Assembly: GCA_029932675.1 (NCBI GenBank)
Contig: JAOZPP010000067.1
Location: 1-19,136 of the forward strand
Source: a bacterium
GTDB lineage: Bacteria > SM23-81 > DAOVCL01
DNA: 19,136 nucleotides
Direction of reading: 5' to 3'
Shown here: piece by piece, positions 3,373-18,413 of the stretch
Layout: each line of letters starts with the position of its first letter
How positions within the stretch are numbered: the first letter of the stretch is position 1
Notes under the pieces: generated by a model
Seen by the model: the letters and a program-made list of their open reading frames with translations, nothing else
The model's database searches: none
Told to the model about the DNA's origin: nothing
Translations under genes and position numbers: made by a program

Positions 3373-3714
3373 ATGATGGATAGAGACACGAAAAACTCAT
3401 TCGATTTGGGGAGGCTAATCAGTTTTATAACCTCAGAATACAACCCAGAGAAGGTTATCCTCTTTGGCTCTTATGGAACTAAGTTAAAGCGCCAAAATTC
3501 TGATATAGACCTGTTAATCATAAAGAGGACGGAAAAGAGATTTGTGGATAGGGTGGTAGAATTGATGCGGCTTATAAGAAGTCGGTTTGGGTTGGAATAT
3601 CCTGTCGAGCCACTTGTTTATACACCAGATGAATTTAGAAGAGCGAAAAAGATAAACAGCCTATTTATACGGACAATTTTAGCAAAAGGGGTTATTCTAT
3701 ATGAGAAAGAATAA
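3373..3714 (+). CDS. MNT-type nucleotidyltransferase (antitoxin-like)
   Basis: This 113-residue protein is a minimal nucleotidyltransferase of the DNA polymerase beta superfamily. The active-site signature is GS (residues 32-33), ten residues, then D44-x-D46 in SDIDLLII. The C-terminal part (EYPVEPLVYTPDEF) is usual for MNT proteins paired with COG2250-type HEPN proteins. Start choice is between adjacent ATGs at 3373 and 3376; the ribosome binding site TTAGGAG abuts the first, so the second has slightly better spacing. It overlaps the next gene by 14 bases, the standard arrangement for such pairs. The likely role is an antitoxin that nucleotidylates (for example AMPylates) its HEPN partner; this is family knowledge and untested here. 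Confidence 0.85.
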   Translation: MMDRDTKNSFDLGRLISFITSEYNPEKVILFGSYGTKLKRQNSDIDLLIIKRTEKRFVDRVVELMRLIRSRFGLEYPVEPLVYTPDEFRRAKKINSLFIRTILAKGVILYEKE

Positions 3715-4108
3715 GCCTGCCGCAGGGATTTGGTTGAAGAAAGCTATTGAGGATCTTTCCTTTGCAAAGGCAGGTTGGAAAGAGAGTAAGATAGCATCAG
3801 TCACTTGTGTGCTTTGCCAGCAGGCGGTAGAGAAGGCATTAAAATCTCTCTTGGAACTGGAAAATGTTAGCGTAGAAAGAACTCCGTCTCTCAAGACCCA
3901 CAGATTGGTGGATATCATAGAGGAGTGTAAGGGGTTTTATCCCCAGGTAGAGGCATTCACCGATGATTGTGATAAATTGACGGTCTACTATTTTGATAGA
4001 TATCCGGCAGAAATCCCTTTGAATTTGACTGAGGAGGACGCTGAATTTGCCCTTAAGAGTGCAGAGAAGATCCTGGAGTTTGTAAAGCAAGTAATATCAA
4101 AATCCTAA
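3701..4108 (+). CDS. HEPN domain protein (COG2250-like), partner of the upstream nucleotidyltransferase
   Basis: This 135-residue helical protein has the HEPN hallmark CQQAVEKALKSLL (residues 39-51), a following TH pair (66-67) and YYFDRYP near 96-102, as in the COG2250 branch. It lacks the RX4HXY RNase motif of HepT proteins, so ribonuclease activity cannot be assumed. The start ATG at 3701 lies inside the end of the nucleotidyltransferase gene, with AGGGG about ten bases upstream, which suggests coupled translation. This branch of MNT/HEPN pairs is abundant in archaea and thermophilic or uncultured bacteria; function is often given as toxin-antitoxin, but a nucleotide or RNA-binding role remains possible. 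Confidence 0.8.
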   Translation: MRKNKPAAGIWLKKAIEDLSFAKAGWKESKIASVTCVLCQQAVEKALKSLLELENVSVERTPSLKTHRLVDIIEECKGFYPQVEAFTDDCDKLTVYYFDRYPAEIPLNLTEEDAEFALKSAEKILEFVKQVISKS

Positions 4109-4853: not shown

Positions 4854-6356
4854 ATGAAGCAAATTACATTTATCATAGGATTCTTGGCCCTCTTAGCTCT
4901 CGGTCCAAGCTGTAATCAGGGGAATTCCAGTGTGCGCCAGCCTGCTGTGGCTGGGGGATTCTACCCTGCCTCCCGGGATGAGCTGAGGGGGATGATCGAT
5001 GGTTTCCTCTCCAGGGTTCAGGAAGAACGGATAGAGGGGAGGGTCTATGCCATCCTCTGCCCCCATGCTGGCTATCAGTTCTCCGGTCAGGTCGCTGCTT
5101 ACTCTTTTAAACAGCTTGCGGACCGTCATTATGATACGGTGATCATCATCGGCCCCAGCCACCATTACTGGGTGGATGGGGCTTCGGTGGGTGATTGGGA
5201 TTACTACGAGACTCCCTTGGGAAAGGTGAAGGTGGACAGGAAGTTGGCAAAAAAGATAAGGGATTACAACCAGAAACTGGTCTTCTCCCCTGCCGCTCAT
5301 GAGAGGGAACACTCAGTGGAGGTGGAGGTTCCCTTCCTGCAAAGGGTGTTAAAGGGTTTTCAGCTTGTCCCCATAGTGATGGGCAAACCCACTTTGGAGA
5401 ACTGTCATATCCTTTCCCAGGCTATCTTAAGGGCCATAGGTGACCGGAGGGTTCTCTTGGTGGCCAGTTCTGATATGTCCCACTATCCCTCCTATGAAAA
5501 TGCTCGTCAGGTTGATGAACAGACCCTCTCTGCCATAGGGAGCCTCGACCCGGAGAGGGTATTTAGGTCTGACAGGGAAATCCTAAGCCAAGGTGTCCCC
5601 AACTTAGAATGCACCTTGTGTGGCTTAGGACCTGTGGCCACCGTGATGATGGTGGCTAAAGAGATGGGAGCGGAGAAGGCCAAGGTGCTTCATTATGCCA
5701 ACTCTGGGGATGTAGCAGTGAAAGGAGTGAAGAATAGGGGGAGGGTAGTAGGGTATGGAGCCGTAGCTTTTTATACCCCAAAAACCCAAACCAAAGGAGG
5801 AAAACCAATGGACTTGACCGATGAGGAGAAGGCGGAACTCCTGAGGATAGCTCGTACTACCCTGGAGCACATCCTGAGGAAGGAGAGCCCACCAGAATTT
5901 GAGCCGAAAAGTGAGAGGTTGAGGGAGAAGAGAGGGGTCTTCGTCACCTTGACCAACCAGGGGAGACTGCGCGGATGTATCGGCCATTTCCCGGCTGATA
6001 CCCCTCTTTACAAGATAGTCTCTCAGATGGCCATTGCGGCAGCTACCCAGGACTATAGGTTTTACTATAACCCAGTTACCTTTGAGGAACTCGACCAGAT
6101 AAAGATCGAAATCTCCATCCTCTCCCCGATGAAGAAGGTGACCGATGTTAACCAGATAAGGATGGGTGTAGACGGGATCTACATCCGGCAGGGGAACCGA
6201 GCGGGAACTTTCCTCCCCCAGGTGGCTACCGAGACCGGATGGAGCAGGGAAGAGTTCCTCAGCCACTGTTGCCAGGATAAGGCTGGTCTCCCTCCGGATT
6301 GCTGGAAGAAGGGGGCAGAGATCTACACCTACACGGCAACCGTCTTCCATGAGTGA
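4854..6356 (+). CDS. MEMO1-AMMECR1 fusion (AmmeMemoRadiSam proteins B and A) with lipoprotein signal
   Basis: Two domains that are normally separate genes are joined in one 500-residue frame. Residues 1-20 form a signal peptide ending in a lipobox-like LGPSC, so the protein is probably exported and lipidated on Cys20. Residues about 28-308 are MEMO1-like: PHAGY (70-74), GPSHH (100-104), EHSVEVEVPF (152-161), SSDMSHY (205-211) and CTLCG (253-257) supply the His/Cys metal site of the family. Residues about 319-500 are AMMECR1-like, with the invariant LRGCIG at 372-377. The linker TPKTQTKGGKPMD contains an in-frame ATG with a consensus ribosome binding site. These families co-occur with a radical SAM protein, AmrS, which is not seen here. 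The biochemical role of the set is unsettled. The next gene overlaps by eight bases. Confidence 0.9.
   Translation: MKQITFIIGFLALLALGPSCNQGNSSVRQPAVAGGFYPASRDELRGMIDGFLSRVQEERIEGRVYAILCPHAGYQFSGQVAAYSFKQLADRHYDTVIIIGPSHHYWVDGASVGDWDYYETPLGKVKVDRKLAKKIRDYNQKLVFSPAAHEREHSVEVEVPFLQRVLKGFQLVPIVMGKPTLENCHILSQAILRAIGDRRVLLVASSDMSHYPSYENARQVDEQTLSAIGSLDPERVFRSDREILSQGVPNLECTLCGLGPVATVMMVAKEMGAEKAKVLHYANSGDVAVKGVKNRGRVVGYGAVAFYTPKTQTKGGKPMDLTDEEKAELLRIARTTLEHILRKESPPEFEPKSERLREKRGVFVTLTNQGRLRGCIGHFPADTPLYKIVSQMAIAAATQDYRFYYNPVTFEELDQIKIEISILSPMKKVTDVNQIRMGVDGIYIRQGNRAGTFLPQVATETGWSREEFLSHCCQDKAGLPPDCWKKGAEIYTYTATVFHE
5793..5810 (+). promoter_or_regulatory. Internal ribosome binding site and ATG at the MEMO1/AMMECR1 junction
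   Basis: AAAGGAGG at 5793-5800 lies seven bases before an in-frame ATG at 5808-5810, exactly where the AMMECR1 domain begins (Met319 of the fusion). This spacing is ideal. It could produce a free cytoplasmic AMMECR1 protein of 182 residues besides the exported fusion, or be the fossil start of a gene that merged with its upstream neighbour. Confidence 0.7.
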
Positions 6357-7233
6357 GATTAAGATCCTCTATGAGTCCCCCGAGTGGTCTAACCTCCACT
6401 TAGGCCAGCTCTTGGAGGCCAGGGGTGCGGAGGTAGAACTCATCGACCTGAGAGCTGCCTCCCTCAGCCTGGGGGATGAACCACCCTCAGGGCTCTATGT
6501 AAACAGGGTGTTCCCCAGCGCGGTGATGAGGGGCGCAGCCTCCAGCATAAGTTTGGCCTGGAAGTGGATCTTGTGGCTGGAGTCAAAGGGGAGAAGGGTG
6601 ATAAACCCCTCTCAGGCCTCCCGCTATGACTATGACAAGGCAACAACCTATATCAAACTCTCCCAACTTGGGGTATTGGTCCCCCAGACCATTGTCTGTG
6701 GCAGCATAGAATCCTTGAGGGAGGGGGTGGAGATTCTGGGATTTCCCTTAATCCTCAAGCAGAACTTAGGAGGAAGAGCTTATCAGACGAAGATCTTCCA
6801 ATCGCCCATCCAATGGGAAGAGGAGCTTACCAAGGGGATAGCCTTTGGCGCTGACCATCTCCTCCTCCTTCAGAGATATATAAACCCCTTAGGGGATTAC
6901 ACCCTGAGGGCAGAGGTGGTGGGGGGGGAGCTAATCTGCCTCTTAAAGAGGTATGTAGCCAAGGGAGGGATAAGCAGTTGGTCGCGGGGCTCCCAGTATG
7001 AGGTCGTCTCCCATCCGGAGGAGGAGGTAGTATCCCTCTCCTTGAGGGTGGCCCAGGAGACGGGTATGGAGATGGGGGGGTTAGATTTTATCAGAGATAG
7101 AGAGGGTCAGCTCTATCTACTTGATCTTAATGCCACCTCCAACTTTACCCCCGAGTACCTCACCTTCTTGGGTTTTGACCCAGTGGAGAGGATGGCCACA
7201 TATATCATACAGGAGGTGAAGGGGGAGGGATAA
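6349..7233 (+). CDS. RimK-like ATP-grasp ligase
   Basis: The 294-residue protein has the ATP-grasp plan: an N-terminal alpha/beta domain (1-90, KILYESPEWSNL), the conserved DKATTYIKLSQLGVLVP segment (96-112), the ATP-binding lysine in LILKQNLGG (134-142), a basic loop around RYVAKGG (201-207), and metal ligands in GGLDFIRD (243-250) and YLLDLNATSNF (256-266). Enzymes of this family couple ATP hydrolysis to joining a carboxylate to an amine, as in RimK (glutamate addition to ribosomal protein S6) and lysine-biosynthesis LysX. The substrate cannot be read from the sequence. The start ATG overlaps the upstream stop in ATGAGTGA, so it is translationally coupled to the MEMO1-AMMECR1 gene. No signal peptide, hence cytoplasmic. 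Confidence 0.85.
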   Translation: MSEIKILYESPEWSNLHLGQLLEARGAEVELIDLRAASLSLGDEPPSGLYVNRVFPSAVMRGAASSISLAWKWILWLESKGRRVINPSQASRYDYDKATTYIKLSQLGVLVPQTIVCGSIESLREGVEILGFPLILKQNLGGRAYQTKIFQSPIQWEEELTKGIAFGADHLLLLQRYINPLGDYTLRAEVVGGELICLLKRYVAKGGISSWSRGSQYEVVSHPEEEVVSLSLRVAQETGMEMGGLDFIRDREGQLYLLDLNATSNFTPEYLTFLGFDPVERMATYIIQEVKGEG

Positions 7234-7550
7234 AGTTCTTGTGAGGAGGAGTCTTCCTGCACTGATGGTTTTTGACAACTTGATCGGGGGATGACTTAGT
7301 CCCGATCTATTCATAAATTAGGGTGAGGATCTGCGACACACATAGGTTTTATGTTGTAAGGACAGGGCTTCAGCCCTGTCCGTTCCCCTCTCTCGATTAC
7401 CCAATTAATAAATCAAAGACCATTAGTGCAGGCTGAAGACCTTCGGGCCTTTCTTGTTGAGGGTAAAGCCTTCTTAGTCCCGGCTAAACCGGGGAGGCCT
7501 TATGGGAGGTGAGCGACCGTAAGGGAGCTAAGTTCGTTAGAGGAGGTAAA
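7234..7550. other. 317-base intergenic leader with several palindromes
   Basis: No gene is supported. It contains GATCGGG/CCCGATC at 7282-7307, the perfect hairpin at 7360-7381, a GGC/GCC-rich stretch around 7440-7470, and CCCGG/CCGGG around loop CTAAA at 7479-7493. TTGACA occurs at 7272 without a good -10 box 17 bases on, so the promoter is uncertain. The last 70 bases (GGGAGGTGAGCGACCGTAAG and onward) might be a structured leader of the dehydrogenase operon, but no riboswitch class was recognised. Confidence 0.5.
7360..7381. repeat. Perfect palindrome built on GGGCTTCAGCCC
   Basis: GGACAGGGCT (7360-7369) pairs exactly with AGCCCTGTCC (7372-7381) around two bases. Similar GGGCTNNAGCCC cores occur at 13869-13880, so this may be a small genomic repeat family of the REP kind. 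It lacks a T tract. Confidence 0.7.
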
Positions 7551-7865
7551 ATGAGGATAGTCCAACATCCCATATTGACCTTTGCGCGGGGGAAGAAGAT
7601 AAGCTTCACCTTTGATGGGCGCACCTTGGAGGGGTATGAGGGTGAGCCAATAGCTGCTGCTCTCCACGATGCTGGGGTGAAGGTGCTTAGGCGAAGCATA
7701 AGATTGAGCAGGCCGCGGGGTTTCTTCTGTGCGGTGGGCAAATGCTCCTCCTGCCTGATGAAGGTTGATGGAAAGCCAAATGTGCGGGTCTGTATCGAAC
7801 CCCTCAGGGAGGGGATGAGGGTAGAAACCCAGAGGGGAAAGGGGGAACTAATTGAGAGAGGTTGA
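7551..7865 (+). CDS. (2Fe-2S) ferredoxin-like small subunit of a flavin amine dehydrogenase (HcnA/SoxA N-terminal type)
   Basis: ATG at 7551 is chosen because it follows GAGGAGGTAA by two bases; an in-frame GTG at 7509 has no such site. The 104-residue product has a 2Fe-2S binding pattern C60-x4-C65-x2-C68-x12-C81 in FCAVGKCSSCLMKVDG and RVC. This Fer2_4-like fold is a separate subunit in HCN synthase (HcnA) and in some proline or sarcosine dehydrogenases, and the N-terminus of sarcosine oxidase alpha. It should pass electrons from the FAD subunits to an acceptor. It overlaps the next gene by 14 bases and probably opens the operon. Confidence 0.85.
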   Translation: MRIVQHPILTFARGKKISFTFDGRTLEGYEGEPIAAALHDAGVKVLRRSIRLSRPRGFFCAVGKCSSCLMKVDGKPNVRVCIEPLREGMRVETQRGKGELIERG

Positions 7866-8946
7866 AATAGCCATTGTGGGGGGTGGTCCAGCCGGTCTCT
7901 CTGCTGCTGGGATTGCTCTTCAGACAGGGGCAACCGCACTGCTCATCGATGATGGACAACACCTGGGGGGGCAACTTGTCAAACAGACCCATAAGTTCTT
8001 TGGCTCAAAGGAGCAGTATGCCAGCACGCGAGGCATAGAGATAGCCCGTATTTTGGAGAAGGGATTAGAAGGTCATCCTCACCTCGAGGTTTGGCTCAAC
8101 TCCTCTGCTGTCGGGTACTATCCAGATGGGGTGCTCACCGTGCTCAAAGATGAGCGACTGGTGAAGGTTAAACCAGCCAGGTTGATAATAGCCACCGGGG
8201 CAGCGGAGAAGATGTTGGCCTTTGCCAACAACGATCTTCCTGGAGTTTATGGTGCCGGAGCTGTGCAGACCTTGATGAACCTGTACGGAGTTCTACCCGG
8301 GAGGAGGGCCTTGATGGTAGGGGCAGGGAACATCGGGCTCATCGTCAGCTACCAGCTTCTCCAGGCAGGGGTGGAGGTGGAGGCAGTTGTAGAGGCAATG
8401 CCCAAGGTAGGGGGCTACTGGGTGCATGCGGCTAAGCTGCGGAGAACGGGAGTTCCCATTCTCACCTCCTATACCGTTCTGGCAGCAGAGGGGAGGGAGT
8501 GGGTGGAGGGGGCGATAATCTGTCCAGTGGATGAGCGGTTTCGGCCCATCAAGGGAAAAGAGCAAAGGATCGAGGTGGACCTGATCTGTCTGGCAGTAGG
8601 ACTCTCCCCTTTGAGCGAATTACTCTGGCAGGCAGGGTGTAAGATGAAATACATCTCCCAATTAGGAGGGTTCGCTCCCCTCAGGGATGGAAATATGGAG
8701 ACTACTGTAAAGGGGGTCTATGTGGCTGGGGATAGTGCAGGTGTGGAGGAGGCATCCACGGCTATGGTGGAGGGGAGGATAGCTGGCCTGGCTGCCGCCA
8801 CTTCCCTTGGCTACAGGATAGCGGATGCCCAGCGGCTAAAGGAGGGGCTTTGGGCCGAACTGGAAATGCTCAGGAGAGGGCCGGTAGGGCAGAAGGTGAG
8901 GGAAGGCGTAAAGACGGCGCTGATCAATCAGGATTCCGATTCTTAG
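7852..8946 (+). CDS. FAD/NAD(P)-dependent oxidoreductase, alpha subunit of amine dehydrogenase (HcnB-like)
   Basis: TTG at 7852 is the likely start: the FAD-binding GGGPAG motif follows at residues 10-15. A second dinucleotide motif VGAGNIG lies at 156-162, IIATGA at 112-117 and the FAD-closing VAGDSAG at 291-297, the two-dinucleotide-fold arrangement of HcnB, sarcosine oxidase alpha and archaeal-type proline dehydrogenase alpha. At 364 residues it is shorter than HcnB-type proteins, which usually carry a C-terminal BFD-like 2Fe-2S domain; that domain is encoded separately at 11505. It overlaps the ferredoxin-like gene by 14 bases. The substrate is undetermined. Confidence 0.87.
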   Translation: MREVEIAIVGGGPAGLSAAGIALQTGATALLIDDGQHLGGQLVKQTHKFFGSKEQYASTRGIEIARILEKGLEGHPHLEVWLNSSAVGYYPDGVLTVLKDERLVKVKPARLIIATGAAEKMLAFANNDLPGVYGAGAVQTLMNLYGVLPGRRALMVGAGNIGLIVSYQLLQAGVEVEAVVEAMPKVGGYWVHAAKLRRTGVPILTSYTVLAAEGREWVEGAIICPVDERFRPIKGKEQRIEVDLICLAVGLSPLSELLWQAGCKMKYISQLGGFAPLRDGNMETTVKGVYVAGDSAGVEEASTAMVEGRIAGLAAATSLGYRIADAQRLKEGLWAELEMLRRGPVGQKVREGVKTALINQDSDS

Positions 8947-9079
8947 CTCGCGTTATTCATAGATCGCGGATGACCACAGCGAAGTCGAGACCGAAAAAAC
9001 ATCGTAGCCCGTAGATCGTTACCCCTCCTTTATGGAGGAGGCACTTGAAGTCCCCCTTGCTGGATTTGGATCAGTTTAG

Positions 9080-9811
9080 ATGGATGACCCCTTAGAATTG
9101 GCCACCAGGGTGAGGGGATTGGTAGCTAAGGGGAAGAGCCGCCGTTATTACCGTTTGGGTAGAGGTGGTGGGTGGTATGGGGGGATAGCTACTGCCGATT
9201 GCTGCGGGTGCAACCTCAGATGTTGCTTTTGCTGGAGCAATTATCCCCGGGACAACCCCCAAAGGACGGGGAGGTTCTATACCCCAAAGGAGGTCTTTCA
9301 AAGCCTGGTAAGCTGTGCCCAAAGGAGGGGGTATAACCAGCTAAGGATATCGGGCAATGAGCCAACCCTTGTTCCGGAACACCTCTTCCCGATCCTAAAG
9401 ATGGTCGAGGGGAGTGGGTATAGGTTCATCTTGGAGACAAACGGCACCCTCATCGACTCCAAGTATGCCCTCTCCTTCTCCAAATATAAACACCTCCACG
9501 TGCGGGTCTCCTTCAAGGGAACCAACCCAGAGGAGTTCTCCCTTCTCACTGGGGCCCTTCCCCACGGTTTTGAGCTCCAGATGGAGGGATTGAGAAACCT
9601 ATGGGAGGCTGGGGTGAGCTGCCACCCAGTCCTTATGGCTTCCTTCAGCACAGAGGGAAACCGGGAGAGGTTTAAGGAAAGGCTAAAAGAGATCTCCCCC
9701 AACTTGGCCTTGGAGCTTGAGGAGGAGTGGCTCATCCTTTACCCTCATGTCCGTTTTAAGTTAGAGGAAAGAGGTATTCTCCCTTATGGCCGTATATATC
9801 AAAAAGCCTGA
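9080..9811 (+). CDS. Radical SAM protein (COG5014-like)
   Basis: The 243-residue protein carries the radical SAM cluster motif CNLRCCFC (C44-x3-C48-x2-C51), preceded by two more cysteines (41, 42), and ISGNEPTL in place of the usual GGEPT motif for SAM contact; ILETNGTLI further supports the fold. It is compact and lacks a visible SPASM or other auxiliary-cluster domain. It resembles small Fe-S oxidoreductases of the COG5014 kind, of unknown substrate. There are 133 bases between it and the flavoprotein gene and no strong ribosome binding site before ATG 9080. The next radical SAM gene overlaps it by 26 bases, so the two are probably made together. Confidence 0.85.
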   Translation: MDDPLELATRVRGLVAKGKSRRYYRLGRGGGWYGGIATADCCGCNLRCCFCWSNYPRDNPQRTGRFYTPKEVFQSLVSCAQRRGYNQLRISGNEPTLVPEHLFPILKMVEGSGYRFILETNGTLIDSKYALSFSKYKHLHVRVSFKGTNPEEFSLLTGALPHGFELQMEGLRNLWEAGVSCHPVLMASFSTEGNRERFKERLKEISPNLALELEEEWLILYPHVRFKLEERGILPYGRIYQKA

Positions 9812-10964
9812 ACCCAGCCAGAAGCTGCGGGTTTTAGGGGTGGGGGCCAAATTCGATGTCTCTGGTTATCCATCCCTCCTCTCGGCAAAGAGGAAGATGA
9901 GGTTTGGGTTCATCTACCCAGCGGTGGGAAAGGGGGGAAGGCTTATCCCCCTCCTCAAGGTCCTCCAATCCAACGCTTGTATGGGAAACTGCTACTACTG
10001 TGCCAACCGCCAAGGGAGGGACTTCAGGAGGGTAAAGTTCTCCCCTTCAGAGATGGCCAAGCTCTTCATCCGCTATTATGAAGGGGGAGTTGTCAAGGGG
10101 CTCTTCCTCTCCTCGGCCATCTCCGCCAGGCCAACTCAGGTGGAGGAGGAGATGCTGGAGACGGTGCGGTTGGTGAGGGAGAAATATGGCTTTCGGGGAT
10201 ATGTGCACCTGAAGATCCTCCCTGGAACGGAAGAGGACCTCATTGCCGAGGCAGCAAAGTTTGCCGACCGGCTCTCCATAAACCTGGAGGCCCCAAACCA
10301 GACCTATCTCTCAAGGCTGAGCCCATTCAAGGATTATTCCGGGCAACTCCTCCGGGGGCTGGAGAGGATAGCGAGGGTGCATAGGGAATCCCCCCTTAAA
10401 GCAGGGGTGACCACCCAACTGGTTGTGGGACCCTCTGGAGAGTCGGACAGGGAGCTAATGGAGCTCTCCCATAAACTTTACAAGGGATTGGGGCTTTGGA
10501 GGGTTTATTACAGCGGTTTTACCCCGCTTAAGGATACCCCCTTTGAGGGCCTTCCCCCCTGCTCCAAATGGAGGGAGGCCAGGCTCTATCAGGCAGATTT
10601 CCTCCTTCGTCGGTATGGTTTCACCCCCTCCGAACTCCCCTATGATGGGGAGGGGAACCTCCCTCAGGATATGGACCCCAAGCTTGGTTGGGCCTTAGCC
10701 CACCCGGAGAGGTTCCCCGTTGAGGTGGAGACCGCCTCTTTTGAGGAACTCCTCAGGGTGCCGGGAATCGGGAGGATCTCTGCCCAGAGGATTGTAAACT
10801 TGAGGAGGAAGGAGGGGATAGGGGGATTAGAGGGACTAAAGAGGATGGGAGCAGTGGTGAAGAGAGCACGCAACTTCATCACTATAAAGGGGAAGTTTTC
10901 TCCTTCCCCACAGAAAGGGGAGAAAGAGGTTGACGAACAGCTCTTCCTCTGGGAGGAGCTATAA
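9786..10964 (+). CDS. Radical SAM protein with C-terminal helix-hairpin-helix (COG4277-like, putative DNA modification/repair)
   Basis: The 392-residue protein has the cluster motif CMGNCYYC (C65-x3-C69-x2-C72), a TIM-barrel-like core to about residue 260, and the family segment DPKLGWALAHPERFPVEV (297-314) followed by a helix-hairpin-helix ELLRVPGIGRISAQRIVNLR (321-340), which suggests DNA or RNA binding. It matches proteins labelled putative DNA modification/repair radical SAM proteins, elsewhere linked to a uracil-DNA-glycosylase-like protein. No such partner is visible here; its neighbour is another radical SAM gene, overlapped by 26 bases. The Lys/Glu-rich tail after residue 370 is poorly conserved in character. 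Its place inside a dehydrogenase operon is unexpected. Confidence 0.87.
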   Translation: MAVYIKKPEPSQKLRVLGVGAKFDVSGYPSLLSAKRKMRFGFIYPAVGKGGRLIPLLKVLQSNACMGNCYYCANRQGRDFRRVKFSPSEMAKLFIRYYEGGVVKGLFLSSAISARPTQVEEEMLETVRLVREKYGFRGYVHLKILPGTEEDLIAEAAKFADRLSINLEAPNQTYLSRLSPFKDYSGQLLRGLERIARVHRESPLKAGVTTQLVVGPSGESDRELMELSHKLYKGLGLWRVYYSGFTPLKDTPFEGLPPCSKWREARLYQADFLLRRYGFTPSELPYDGEGNLPQDMDPKLGWALAHPERFPVEVETASFEELLRVPGIGRISAQRIVNLRRKEGIGGLEGLKRMGAVVKRARNFITIKGKFSPSPQKGEKEVDEQLFLWEEL

Positions 10965-11023
10965 TCACTGAAACAATTAGAAATTGGCGTTTTCTTCAAT
11001 TCTGTTAAAATTCAGGAGGAGGT

Positions 11024-11512
11024 ATGTTAGAGAAGGATGGCGTCCCCACTCAGGATGATCTGGCTAGCATCGCCCCATCAGAGGAGAGGCTGGCTAAGGG
11101 ACCGGTGGCCATCATCGAGTGCTTTCAGCCGATCCCCTGCGATCCTTGTTATGACTGGTGTAAGAGGGGAGCAATAGAGAAGTTTCGGGATCCCACGGAC
11201 CTTCCCCAGATAGACTACGAGAGGTGTAATGGATGCAGTCTCTGTGTAATAGGCTGCCCTGGGCTGGCCATATTTATCGTCGACCAAGCCTATTCTGAAA
11301 AGAGGGCCCGGGTAGTGCTTCCCTATGAGTTCCTTCCCTTGCCAGAGGAAGGGGAAGTAGTAGAGGCCCTGAATAGGAAGGGGGAAAAGGTGGGTAGAGC
11401 GGAGGTGCTAAAGGTCCAGCAAACAAAACAGAAGACCACCCTGATATCCCTCCTGGTCCCTCAGAAGTTAGCTATGGAGGTGAGATTCTTCCGGAGGGGG
11501 GAGAATGGATGA
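11024..11512 (+). CDS. 2[4Fe-4S] ferredoxin-like electron-transfer subunit
   Basis: AGGAGGAGG just upstream of ATG 11024 is an excellent ribosome binding site. The 162-residue protein has eight cysteines in ferredoxin spacing: C33-x5-C39-x2-C42-x3-C46 and C68-x2-C71-x2-C74-x3-C78 (RCNGCSLCVIGCPG), so two 4Fe-4S clusters are likely. The C-terminal half (about 95-162) is a beta-rich extension (VVLPYEFLPLPEEGEVVEAL) of unknown role, perhaps docking to the flavoproteins. Such a subunit is present in archaeal and Thermotogales-type proline dehydrogenase complexes and absent from HcnABC, which favours the former comparison. It overlaps the next gene by eight bases. Confidence 0.87.
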   Translation: MLEKDGVPTQDDLASIAPSEERLAKGPVAIIECFQPIPCDPCYDWCKRGAIEKFRDPTDLPQIDYERCNGCSLCVIGCPGLAIFIVDQAYSEKRARVVLPYEFLPLPEEGEVVEALNRKGEKVGRAEVLKVQQTKQKTTLISLLVPQKLAMEVRFFRRGENG

Positions 11513-11780
11513 GGAGAAAATCATTATCTGTCGCTGTGAGGACCTCACCCTCAAGGATATAAGGGAGGCCATTAGCCAGGGCTGCACCACCCTTGAGGAG
11601 ATCAAAAGGGTAACCCGCTGTGGGATGGGGCCCTGTCAGGGACGCACCTGCCTCCCCCTGGTGGCTGCCGAGCTCTCCCGCGCCACTGGTAGGGGGATAG
11701 AGGAGATCCTCCCTTGCACCGTCCGCCCCCCCCTTATGCCCCTCAAGATGGGAACCATAGCTGGAGCCGAAGATGGTTAA
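11505..11780 (+). CDS. BFD-like (2Fe-2S) protein
   Basis: This 91-residue protein has the bacterioferritin-associated-ferredoxin pattern C9-x-C11 and C39-x4-C44 in ICRCEDLT and CGMGPCQGRTC, the typical 2Fe-2S site. In HcnB, sarcosine oxidase alpha and opine oxidases the same module is the C-terminal part of the alpha flavoprotein; here it is a separate gene, three genes away from the flavoprotein. The LEEIKRVTRCGMGPCQGR segment is diagnostic. Eight-base overlaps on both sides (ATGGATGA upstream and ATGGTTAA downstream) indicate coupled translation. Confidence 0.87.
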   Translation: MDEEKIIICRCEDLTLKDIREAISQGCTTLEEIKRVTRCGMGPCQGRTCLPLVAAELSRATGRGIEEILPCTVRPPLMPLKMGTIAGAEDG

Positions 11781-12918
11781 GGGCGCTGAAGTGGTCATCA
11801 TCGGAGCCGGGATCATCGGTTCCTCCATAGCCTATTACTTAGCTAAGGAGGGCTTAAAGGATGTCGTCATCTTGGAGAGGGAATACCCCTGTTGGGGGGC
11901 AACGGGAAGGTGTGGAGCGGGGATAAGGCAACAGTGGGGAACAGAGATGAACTGTAGGTTGGCCAAGGGAAGTGTGGAAATCTTCAAAGGGCTTTCCGAT
12001 GAGTTAGGCTATGATATTGAGTTTGAGCAAGGTGGTTACCTGGTTCTGGCCACGAGCCAAGCCCAGCTCCAGTTGTATAAAAGAAATGTAGCTCTGCAGA
12101 ACAGACTGGGCATCCCCTCGCGGATCGTTACCCCCCAGGAAGCAAAGGAGATCGTTCCCATCCTTAAAACCGATGGGCTCCCTGGGGCGGCCTACTGCCC
12201 CACTGATGGCCATGCCAACCCCTTCAAGACGAATCTCGCCTATCTAAGGGCCGCAGAGAGGTTGGGGGTAAAGCTCTATAAGTTTACCCCAGTAGTAGGG
12301 ATTGAGGTGAAAGATGGGATGGTCCAAGGGGTGATCACTACTGCCGGGAGGATAGAGACCTCCAAGGTAGTGAATGCTGCGGGTGGTTATTCTGCTGAGG
12401 TGGGAAAGCTAGCCGGGTTGGAGATCCCCACCCATTCGGAGAGACATCAGATAATGGTTACCGAGCCTTTGGATGGTCTCTTCGATCCAATGGTCATCTC
12501 CTTTACCAGTGGGCTCTACTGTCAACAGGTTCCGCCGGGGAGCATCCTAATGGGAATGGGGGATCCAGATGAGCCCCCCAGCCACAACCTCAGTGCCTCC
12601 TGGCAGTTCCTCCAGAGGATGGCCCAAGAGGTGCTCAGGATACTTCCCGTTCTGAAGGAGGTGAGGGTAGTAAGACAGTGGGCGGGCCTCTACAACAAGA
12701 CCCCAGATGCTCAACCGATCATTGGGGAGGCGGAGAAGGTGAAGGGTTTCTATATGGCCATTGGCTTTAGTGGTCATGGGTTTATGATCGCTCCGATGAC
12801 CAGCTACATCCTTGCCCGCTTGATTACTGGAGGGGAGCCACCCATCTCAGTGGAGCGCTTAAGCCTGGAGAGGTTTGAGCGAGGAGAACTGGTCATTGAA
12901 CCATCGGTAGTGGGCTGA
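11773..12918 (+). CDS. FAD-dependent amine/amino acid dehydrogenase, beta subunit (DAO family; proline dehydrogenase / sarcosine oxidase beta / HcnC-like)
   Basis: The 381-residue protein begins with the FAD-binding motif VVIIGAGIIGSS (7-18). Further DAO-family signatures are GRCGAGIRQQWGTE (45-58), HSERHQIMVTEP, RQWAGLYNKTPDAQPIIG and GFSGHGFMIAP near the C-terminus. This is the catalytic subunit that oxidises a secondary or primary amine, with the other redox subunits carrying electrons away. The combination with 4Fe-4S and BFD subunits most resembles multi-subunit dye-linked L-proline dehydrogenases; glycine (HCN synthase), sarcosine and hydroxyproline remain possible substrates. No transmembrane segment or signal is seen. 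The stop overlaps the next start by one base (TGATG). Confidence 0.88.
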   Translation: MVKGAEVVIIGAGIIGSSIAYYLAKEGLKDVVILEREYPCWGATGRCGAGIRQQWGTEMNCRLAKGSVEIFKGLSDELGYDIEFEQGGYLVLATSQAQLQLYKRNVALQNRLGIPSRIVTPQEAKEIVPILKTDGLPGAAYCPTDGHANPFKTNLAYLRAAERLGVKLYKFTPVVGIEVKDGMVQGVITTAGRIETSKVVNAAGGYSAEVGKLAGLEIPTHSERHQIMVTEPLDGLFDPMVISFTSGLYCQQVPPGSILMGMGDPDEPPSHNLSASWQFLQRMAQEVLRILPVLKEVRVVRQWAGLYNKTPDAQPIIGEAEKVKGFYMAIGFSGHGFMIAPMTSYILARLITGGEPPISVERLSLERFERGELVIEPSVVG

Positions 12919-16520: not shown

Positions 16521-17771
16521 ATGATAGAGGATAAAAAATATGTAGAGTTACTCTGGGCAGGGAAGTATGACAGGTATGATAAAGGGAGGAAGAAGCCGAT
16601 AGAAAAGCCCAATCTCCCCCTCCAATTGGTGGAAACTATAAATGAGCCACGGCTGAAAGAATATGAGGGTACCTTTGGCAAGCAGTTTTACCCCCAAAGT
16701 GAGTATCCCCAGAACTACCCGAAGGACTGGAAAAACTTACTTATCTGGGGTGATAACAAACTGGTGATGAGTTCTCTGATTAAGCAAGGCTGGGCGGGAA
16801 AGATTAATTTGATTTACATTGATCCGCCGTTTTTCACCGGCGCAGATTTTACCGTGAGAACGAAGCTTGGTGACGAAAGAATAAAGAAGGAGCCATCTAT
16901 AATTGAAGAAAGGGCTTACAAAGATACCTGGAGCGGCGGGATTGCCTCCTATCTCAAGTATATGTATGAGCGATTGGTTTTGATGAGGGAACTCTTGGCT
17001 GAGAACGGGTCAATTTATGTGCATCTTGACTGGCATGTGGGACATTATGTTAAGGTGATGATGGATGAAATTTTTGGGTATGATAATTTTAGGAATGAGA
17101 TTGTGTGGCAAAAATTATCTACTCCTAAAGCTCAAACCTTAGGTTTTGGTAATGTTCATGATACCATATTGTGGTATAGTAAAGGAGAGAAGTTAATATT
17201 TAATGAAAGTAGAGTGCCTCATAAGGCAGAATATTTAGAAAAGATGTATAGATTTGTTGAATCCGAAACAGGAAGAAGATACAGATTGCATGATTTCACT
17301 CAAAAAGGGCAAGGAGAACCTAGAAAGTTTGGTGATAAAGTATTAGCACCACCACCAGGAAAACATTGGATTTGGTCACAAGACAAAATAGATGAGGGAT
17401 TAAAAAAGGGATTAATAGTTTTCTCCAACACAGGAATGCCACAGATAAAAAGATATTTGGATGAAGTAGTAGGTCATAGACTTAGTGATATTTGGATAGA
17501 TATAAATCCAATCGGCTCAGTTGCACAAGAGAGACTTGATTTTGACACGCAAAAACCCGAATCCCTCCTCAAACGTATCATTCTCTCGTCTTCTAATGAA
17601 GGCGACATAGTTGCAGACTTTTTCTGTGGTTCAGGCACTACCTTAGCAGTTGCAGAGAAACTGGGAAGGCGATGGATAGGTTCTGATCTCTCCAAGTTTG
17701 CCATTCAGGTTACCAGAAAGAGGTTATTGGATATTCACAACTCAAAGGATTTAATGGAGAACGAACGATGA
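16521..17771 (+). CDS. Site-specific DNA methyltransferase, beta class (type III Mod-like, N6-adenine or N4-cytosine)
   Basis: ATG 16521 is chosen because AAGGAGGAG ends six bases before it; an upstream in-frame TTG at 16452 has no such site. The 416-residue protein has catalytic motif IV DPPF (101-104, in LIYIDPPFFTGADF) before the SAM-binding motif I FCGSGTT (368-374) and WIGSDLS, the order of beta-class amino-methyltransferases. WKNLLIWGDNKLVMSSLI before motif IV is typical of Mod-like enzymes. Residues about 186-333, between the two motifs where the target-recognition domain should be, are encoded by markedly more AT-rich DNA than the flanks. The gene overlaps the next by four bases (ATGA). 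It probably modifies DNA for a restriction or defence system extending past the window. Confidence 0.9.
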   Translation: MIEDKKYVELLWAGKYDRYDKGRKKPIEKPNLPLQLVETINEPRLKEYEGTFGKQFYPQSEYPQNYPKDWKNLLIWGDNKLVMSSLIKQGWAGKINLIYIDPPFFTGADFTVRTKLGDERIKKEPSIIEERAYKDTWSGGIASYLKYMYERLVLMRELLAENGSIYVHLDWHVGHYVKVMMDEIFGYDNFRNEIVWQKLSTPKAQTLGFGNVHDTILWYSKGEKLIFNESRVPHKAEYLEKMYRFVESETGRRYRLHDFTQKGQGEPRKFGDKVLAPPPGKHWIWSQDKIDEGLKKGLIVFSNTGMPQIKRYLDEVVGHRLSDIWIDINPIGSVAQERLDFDTQKPESLLKRIILSSSNEGDIVADFFCGSGTTLAVAEKLGRRWIGSDLSKFAIQVTRKRLLDIHNSKDLMENER

Positions 17772-18061
17772 AAACTCTTGAAGAGATAAAGAAGATATTG
17801 GCTGAGAATAAAAAGTTGCTGGAAGAAAAATATAAGATAAAGGAGATAAAAATCTTCGGTTCTTATGCCAGACACGAGCAGAAAAAGCGGAGCGATGTTG
17901 ATATTCTTGTAGATTTTTATGAAGTGCCCGACCTTTTAAAATTCATTGAAATTGAAAGATATCTTGAGGAATTATTAGGGGTTAAAGTGGATTTGGTTAG
18001 GAAAGTTGTTTTACGCGCGGAACTAAAGGATAAAATCATTAAGGAGTCAGTAGAAATATGA
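17768..18061 (+). CDS. mntA: MntA-type nucleotidyltransferase antitoxin
   Basis: This 97-residue minimal nucleotidyltransferase shows the full active site: GS (31-32), ten residues, then D43-x-D45 in RSDVDILVDF, and a third acidic residue in KVDLV (about 75). It is a different branch from the nucleotidyltransferase at 3373. In the MntA-HepT family it inactivates its toxin by adding AMP units to a tyrosine in the RX4HXY motif. It overlaps the methyltransferase stop (ATGA) and the toxin start by four bases, so it is translated within the methylation operon. The DNA is AT-rich and Lys/Ile-rich, unlike the genes left of 14 kb. Confidence 0.88.
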   Translation: MKTLEEIKKILAENKKLLEEKYKIKEIKIFGSYARHEQKKRSDVDILVDFYEVPDLLKFIEIERYLEELLGVKVDLVRKVVLRAELKDKIIKESVEI

Positions 18062-18413
18062 AAAGAGATTACAAACTTTTTTAAAGGATATTCTGTTATC
18101 GATAGATAAAATTGAGAGTTTTGTAGATGAGATGAGTTTTGAAGAATTTATGAAAGATGAGAAAACAAAGAGTGCTGTAATAAGAGAAATAGAGGTTATT
18201 GGAGAGGCAACTAAAAATATACCAGAGGTGATAAGAAAAAGGTATAAGGAATTACCCTGGAAGGATATGGCAAGGATGAGAGATAAAATCATACATTTCT
18301 ATTTTGGGGTTGATTATGAAATTGTCTGGAAGGTTGTGAAAGATAGATTGCCCGATATTAAAAATTTAATTAAAAAGATTGTTAGCGCACAGGAGAGGAA
18401 AAATGGCTGCTAA
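18058..18413 (+). CDS. hepT: HepT-type HEPN toxin with a one-base frameshift near the 5' end
   Basis: From ATG 18058 the frame reads MKRDYKLF, the usual HepT opening, then meets TAA at 18082 after a run of six T. Shifting back by one base at that run gives LKDILLSIDKIESF and stays open to 18413, restoring a 118-residue HepT. The toxin motif RX4HXY is intact (RDKIIHFY), so catalytic RNase and the AMPylation tyrosine are kept. An unshifted product could start only at ATG 18132 (93 residues), lacking the first helix. The defect may be an inactivating mutation, a homopolymer sequencing error or recoding. It overlaps mntA by four bases and the next gene by eleven. HepT proteins are ribonucleases restrained by MntA. 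Confidence 0.8.

Follow-up and report, generated by a model that had tools for sequence, protein, structure and literature searches.

Memo, AMMECR1 and a radical-SAM partner are widespread in prokaryotes, and Memo and AMMECR1 are present also in humans, but we know of no joint function of the three proteins. In the window analysed here, a whole stretch of 19,136 nucleotides from a bacterial contig, Memo and AMMECR1 are encoded in one frame behind a signal-type N-terminus, and a potential ribosome-binding site precedes a Met codon at the domain junction. The question raised by this locus is whether the gene makes one protein or two and, if two, in which compartments these would work.

The frame is open from the ATG at 4854 to the TGA at 6354-6356 on the plus strand (500 aa), and contains, in this order, the signal-type N-terminus, an intact Memo domain, a short linker and an intact AMMECR1 domain (Table 1). 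The presence of both family domains in one frame, as given in the initial annotation, was confirmed by Pfam and NCBIfam matches to each domain, with 272 bits against a cutoff of 26 for AmmeMemoRadiSam protein B (TIGR04336) and 184 bits against a curated cutoff of 99 for protein A (TIGR04335). H71, H103 and C256 of the fusion align with H49, H81 and C244, the metal ligands of human MEMO1 (PDB 7KQ8; PMC11081632), and the AMMECR1 region is complete and carries the RGCIG motif as in the archaeal AMMECR1 proteins (1ZQ7, 1VAJ); MEMO1 and archaeal AMMECR1 are, however, separate proteins, whereas here they are joined in a signal-bearing fusion. An assembly error or a missing stop codon, which relatives with a stop between the domains might have exposed, was ruled out because both the 79%-identical sister gene (L013/L042) and the remaining homologues of the alignment read through the junction without a stop. 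The matches listed for 386 genomes spread over the domain Bacteria include about 85 fused ones of full length, and about 100 fused genes were looked at in all. The Memo-AMMECR1 fusion is thus old and widespread, and neither an error nor rare.

Table 1. Positions of the features on and next to the Memo-AMMECR1 fusion gene in the window
Feature	Position	Strand	Basis or remark
Gene of the Memo-AMMECR1 fusion (AmmeMemoRadiSam B+A; the long product has 500 aa)	4854..6356	+	ORF, domain matches
Signal-type N-terminus MKQITFIIGFLALLALGPSC	4854..4913	+	Cys20 conserved in sister; lipobox degenerate
Memo domain	4938..5762	+	Residues 29-303, PF01875 2e-64
Internal Shine-Dalgarno AAAGGAGG	5793..5800	+	-11.6 kcal/mol against anti-SD; weak mRNA structure
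Free AMMECR1 of 182 aa (second product, proposed), MDLTDEEKAELLRIAR...	5808..6356	+	SD and ATG, comparison of fusions
AMMECR1 domain	5841..6347	+	Residues 330-498, PF01871 2e-55
RimK-like ATP-grasp ligase gene	6349..7233	+	8-nt overlap with the stop of the fusion; beside the fusion in sister too

By inspection and hydropathy, the N-terminus consists of a positively charged n-region and a hydrophobic h-region. The lipoprotein type initially assigned to it held only in part: the sequence is of the signal type and its Cys at residue 20 is kept in the sister, but the preceding residues, LGPS-C in the window protein and IGLR-C in the sister, both fall outside the usual lipobox pattern. Among 96 aligned fusions, the N-terminus is of signal or TM type in 82, 34 of them with a clear standard lipobox and 48 more with a signal or TM segment. 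From these features the window protein is likely to be exported, while its lipidation is uncertain because its lipobox is degenerate.

At the junction, a spacer of 7 nt (5801-5807) separates AAAGGAGG from the in-frame ATG at 5808-5810 (residue 319), and linker residues 313-319 read TKGGKPM; the initial placement of the site seven bases ahead of 5808 agreed in both coordinates and linker translation. Its pairing energy equals that of the main start at 4854, and the mRNA around 5808 ranks, among 50-nt stretches of the gene, within the 5% with least structure. The match with the solved AMMECR1 structure 1zq7 begins with residue 2 of 1zq7 on residue 321 of the fusion, so that translation begun at 5808 would give AMMECR1 in full. 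In most fusions from genomes of the same gene content (class B+A-, see below), the internal Met precedes the domain anchor by 11-14 residues, and stand-alone AMMECR1 proteins start mostly 10-18 residues before this anchor; by these alignments ATG 5808 sits at the predicted natural start of AMMECR1. Taken alone, the internal site is unexceptional in this purine-rich genome and proves little: among 134 internal in-frame ATGs of sampled genes of the genome, 16 are preceded by an SD of -8 kcal/mol or below and 10 by one of -11 or below. Because strong chance SDs are this common, the comparison across genomes was relied on.

No AMMECR1 domain besides that of the fusion was found in the genome. Memo is encoded twice, in the fusion and in a signal-less stand-alone gene of 274 aa (L008:8471-9295). 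One radical-SAM (rS) enzyme has a Tat-type N-terminus with SRKEFL (L008:11159-12307, SRKEFLKRFGGG...) and another is without signal (L009:2754-3773). TIGR04337 is represented by two full copies above cutoff (380 and 362 bits) and one cut by a contig edge; this third AmmeMemoSam radical-SAM gene (L010:1-780, edge of contig 63) lost its 5' part at the contig start, and with it the N-terminus that would show its compartment. The rS genes of this genome lie on contigs other than that of the fusion but adjoin the fusion in G073, G329, G354, G234 and G376; adjacency is usual, but not required. The sister genome G001 has the same layout of fusion, Memo and two rS types, Tat-type beside signal-less, the Tat type being stated solely for the genomes read, as the rS start was unplaceable in about half of the loci. 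The sister also keeps GGGAGGAG at equal distance from the ATG, although the surrounding linker residues differ. With the fusion as the single source of this domain, a cytoplasmic set would be without AMMECR1 unless the start at 5808 is used. The absence of a stand-alone AMMECR1 gene may reflect unassembled sequence, the genomes being mostly drafts and the present one 97% complete.

For the comparison, the best in-frame ATG from the end of Memo to the start of AMMECR1 was scored, with an anti-SD pairing threshold of -6 kcal/mol and a spacing of 3-12, in 96 fused genes and two added later, and the genomes were classed by the presence of a stand-alone Memo (B) and a stand-alone AMMECR1 (A). A separate long Memo family (frames of about 380-480 aa with lower scores), present in many genomes such as G037:C129, G185:C217 and G048:C145, was left out of the stand-alone protein B count. 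In the first round of 81 fusions, whose genomes were assigned to classes from search tables once an initial SD scan had been run, the site was present in 16/18 of B+A-, 0/23 of B+A+, 3/34 of B-A- and 2/6 of B-A+ (B+A- against B+A+, Fisher p=1.5e-9; counted by family, 11/12 against 0/17, p=3.5e-7). Solely the out-of-sample genomes are free of this order of work. Among 15 previously unclassed fusions, the four with an SD (L043, L045, L053, L019) all come from B+A- genomes and the eleven without one from genomes outside this class, three of these eleven genomes having weak or long Memo matches that were left out of the B count. A later search in the class of G206 gave four genomes, two of them new (G404 and G071), and both are B+A- with the site present (AAAAGGAGGTAAGAAAATG; AATAAAGGAGCAGGCATG). 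All six out-of-sample B+A- genomes thus agree with the rule.

The final totals with the site are 22/24 of B+A-, the class of the present genome, 0/24 of B+A+, 3/44 of B-A- and 2/6 of B-A+. Conservation of the internal site in relatives, on which the initial annotation was to be judged, is therefore not universal, but the site is kept in 22 of the 24 B+A- genomes and in none of the 24 where both stand-alone genes exist. Across bacteria, the site is almost confined to genomes that have a cytoplasmic Memo but no AMMECR1 other than that of the fusion. The two B+A- fusions that miss the criterion have a GTG with an SD of -9.9 (L018) and an ATG at -5.4 (L195). Five SD-positive fusions are outside B+A-: G304, without a stand-alone Memo, is 86% complete and of a family common to a B+A- genome; in G047 and G376 the second AMMECR1 is divergent and scores low (73 and 107 bits); and G072 and G252 stand as plain exceptions to the rule.

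Genome composition does not explain the rule, because internal ATGs in the gene bodies of the fusions rarely have an SD (-8 or below in 0-2.5%) and the classes do not differ in this respect. Linker ATGs number 22 per 313 codons in B+A- against 6 per 470 in B+A+. The site is distributed over the tree with about 11 changes of state; dependent evolution was favoured over independent evolution by a Pagel-type test (LR 40.8, p=3e-8), and when an unlinked trait was simulated 10,000 times, the correlation never rose above 0.54, against 0.81 observed. A strict independent-pairs test (treekit) had too few pairs to reach significance. The link between site and gene content survives phylogenetic tests. 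As expected of an internally initiated gene, the locus has an SD and a start codon yielding a whole domain, and the comparative and tree tests indicate that the site is conserved under selection. The fused gene thus very probably makes, as judged from these comparisons, also a free cytoplasmic AMMECR1 from the second, internal start.

The internal SD and ATG might be an unused relic of a tandem operon that lost its stop codon, the old site having yet to decay. Unfused tandem relatives (L028, L196, L197) carry an SD and ATG at the stop codon of Memo or directly downstream of it, and read-through of L196 would give a GGKM linker like that of the present fusion; the initial reading of the linker residues as a translated ribosome-binding site fits these tandems. 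A relic is nevertheless unlikely, because the site has outlasted saturation of the synonymous positions: it is present in each of L005, L013, L043 and L045, which together form a deep, supported clade (SH-aLRT 95) with fourfold sites at background identity, L005 and L013 being separated by a dS of 1.1, and L005 and L043 sharing 46% identity and a fourfold-site identity of 0.22. In the nearby B+A+ pair L014/L015, a well-spaced site was lost or never there, and the state of a relic would not depend on whether a stand-alone AMMECR1 gene is there. The initial annotation had posed stop-loss fusion and a locus with two products, a lipidated fusion and a cytoplasmic AMMECR1, as alternatives; each holds in part, the former by the tandem relatives and the latter by 22/24 against 0/24, with the detail "lipidated" unproven. 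Chance placement of an SD-like stretch ahead of an internal Met, with the fusion as sole product, would suit a purine-rich genome in which 10/134 sampled internal ATGs are equally well preceded, but is extremely unlikely: about 0.03 SD-ATG is expected per 20-codon linker in the fusions, yet 22/24 B+A- fusions have one, and at the right place.

The remaining alternative is that the fusion stays unexported, its N-terminus being a cytoplasm-facing membrane anchor, or that cleavage frees AMMECR1, so that no second compartment is involved. The degenerate lipobox agrees with this, but the clear lipobox or signal or TM segment in most of the aligned fusions and the Tat-type rS copy beside a signal-less one in both the present genome and G001 speak against it, and anchor-only or cleavage models leave the tracking of gene content by the internal SD unexplained; we consider it highly unlikely. 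A hydrophobic signal-type N-terminus is found in 22/22 B+A- fusions of the main set.

The domains, gene content, site and comparative rule observed here point, with considerable confidence, to a two-product, two-compartment account of the fusion gene. In its simplest form, one transcript with two initiation sites would give two proteins. Initiation at 4854 would yield the 500-aa signal-bearing fusion, which would be exported, lipidated or not, and work with the Tat-type rS partner, whose gene lies elsewhere in the genome. Ribosomes that start at 5808, using the Shine-Dalgarno within the linker, would make the signal-less AMMECR1 of 182 aa; this product would remain cytoplasmic and complete a second AmmeMemoRadiSam set, whose other members would be the stand-alone Memo and the rS enzyme lacking a signal. 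The localisation of the products, the pairing of the parts and the reaction are likewise predictions. More generally, AMMECR1 for two compartments was probably supplied repeatedly, and interchangeably, by either a separate cytoplasmic gene or an internal site in the exported fusion. In some ten lineages the internal start would then stand in, heritably, for a duplicated gene, and the two sets would be distinct and both in need of AMMECR1.

The gene conforms to AmmeMemoRadiSam in that its domains pass the cutoffs of proteins A and B, rS partners (TIGR04337) are present in the genome and fused B-A genes are common across bacteria, but differs from the system as described in having an export-type signal together with a conserved internal start and a predicted free protein A. 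A literature search on AmmeMemoRadiSam function or on a bacterial dual-localised AMMECR1 found nothing relevant, and none of the literature searched described an export-signal B-A fusion with a conserved internal start. The closest parallel is Cas11b, a functional short protein from internal in-frame initiation within cas8b (PMC11899642): one gene has two in-frame products, the shorter begun at an internal Met, as predicted here. The short product of cas8b, however, joins the same Cascade complex, whereas the products here are predicted for different compartments and parallel systems, with the internal start and a separate gene as alternatives to each other. The pattern suggests that many bacteria run exported and cytoplasmic sets in parallel, with AMMECR1 needed in each, and that the second start is kept exactly where a further AMMECR1 gene is missing. 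In such genomes the cytoplasmic AMMECR1 would escape gene finders and presence/absence tables, and the need for AMMECR1 in each compartment becomes testable by a single start-codon change. Divergent second Memo-AMMECR1 fusions (AMMECR1 86-103 bits) were found beside an ordinary fusion in G006:C31, G283:C7 and G152:C27.

The RimK-like ligase downstream shares 75% identity with its sister copy over the 259 aa compared; it is a probable operon partner of the fusion and could be a functional partner as well. Farther downstream, 7509-12918 is probably one operon, in which split sarcosine-oxidase-like pieces (2Fe-2S, FAD, ferredoxin, BFD-like, SoxB-like) surround two radical-SAM genes, one at 9080-9811 and, behind it, one at 9786-10964 that resembles TIGR03916 (putative DNA modification/repair rSAM linked to UDG) with 328 bits, just below the cutoff of 343.5. 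A nucleotidyltransferase/HEPN pair was identified by Pfam at 3373-4108, and a small pair at 17768-18413 resembles this type as judged from sequence alone.
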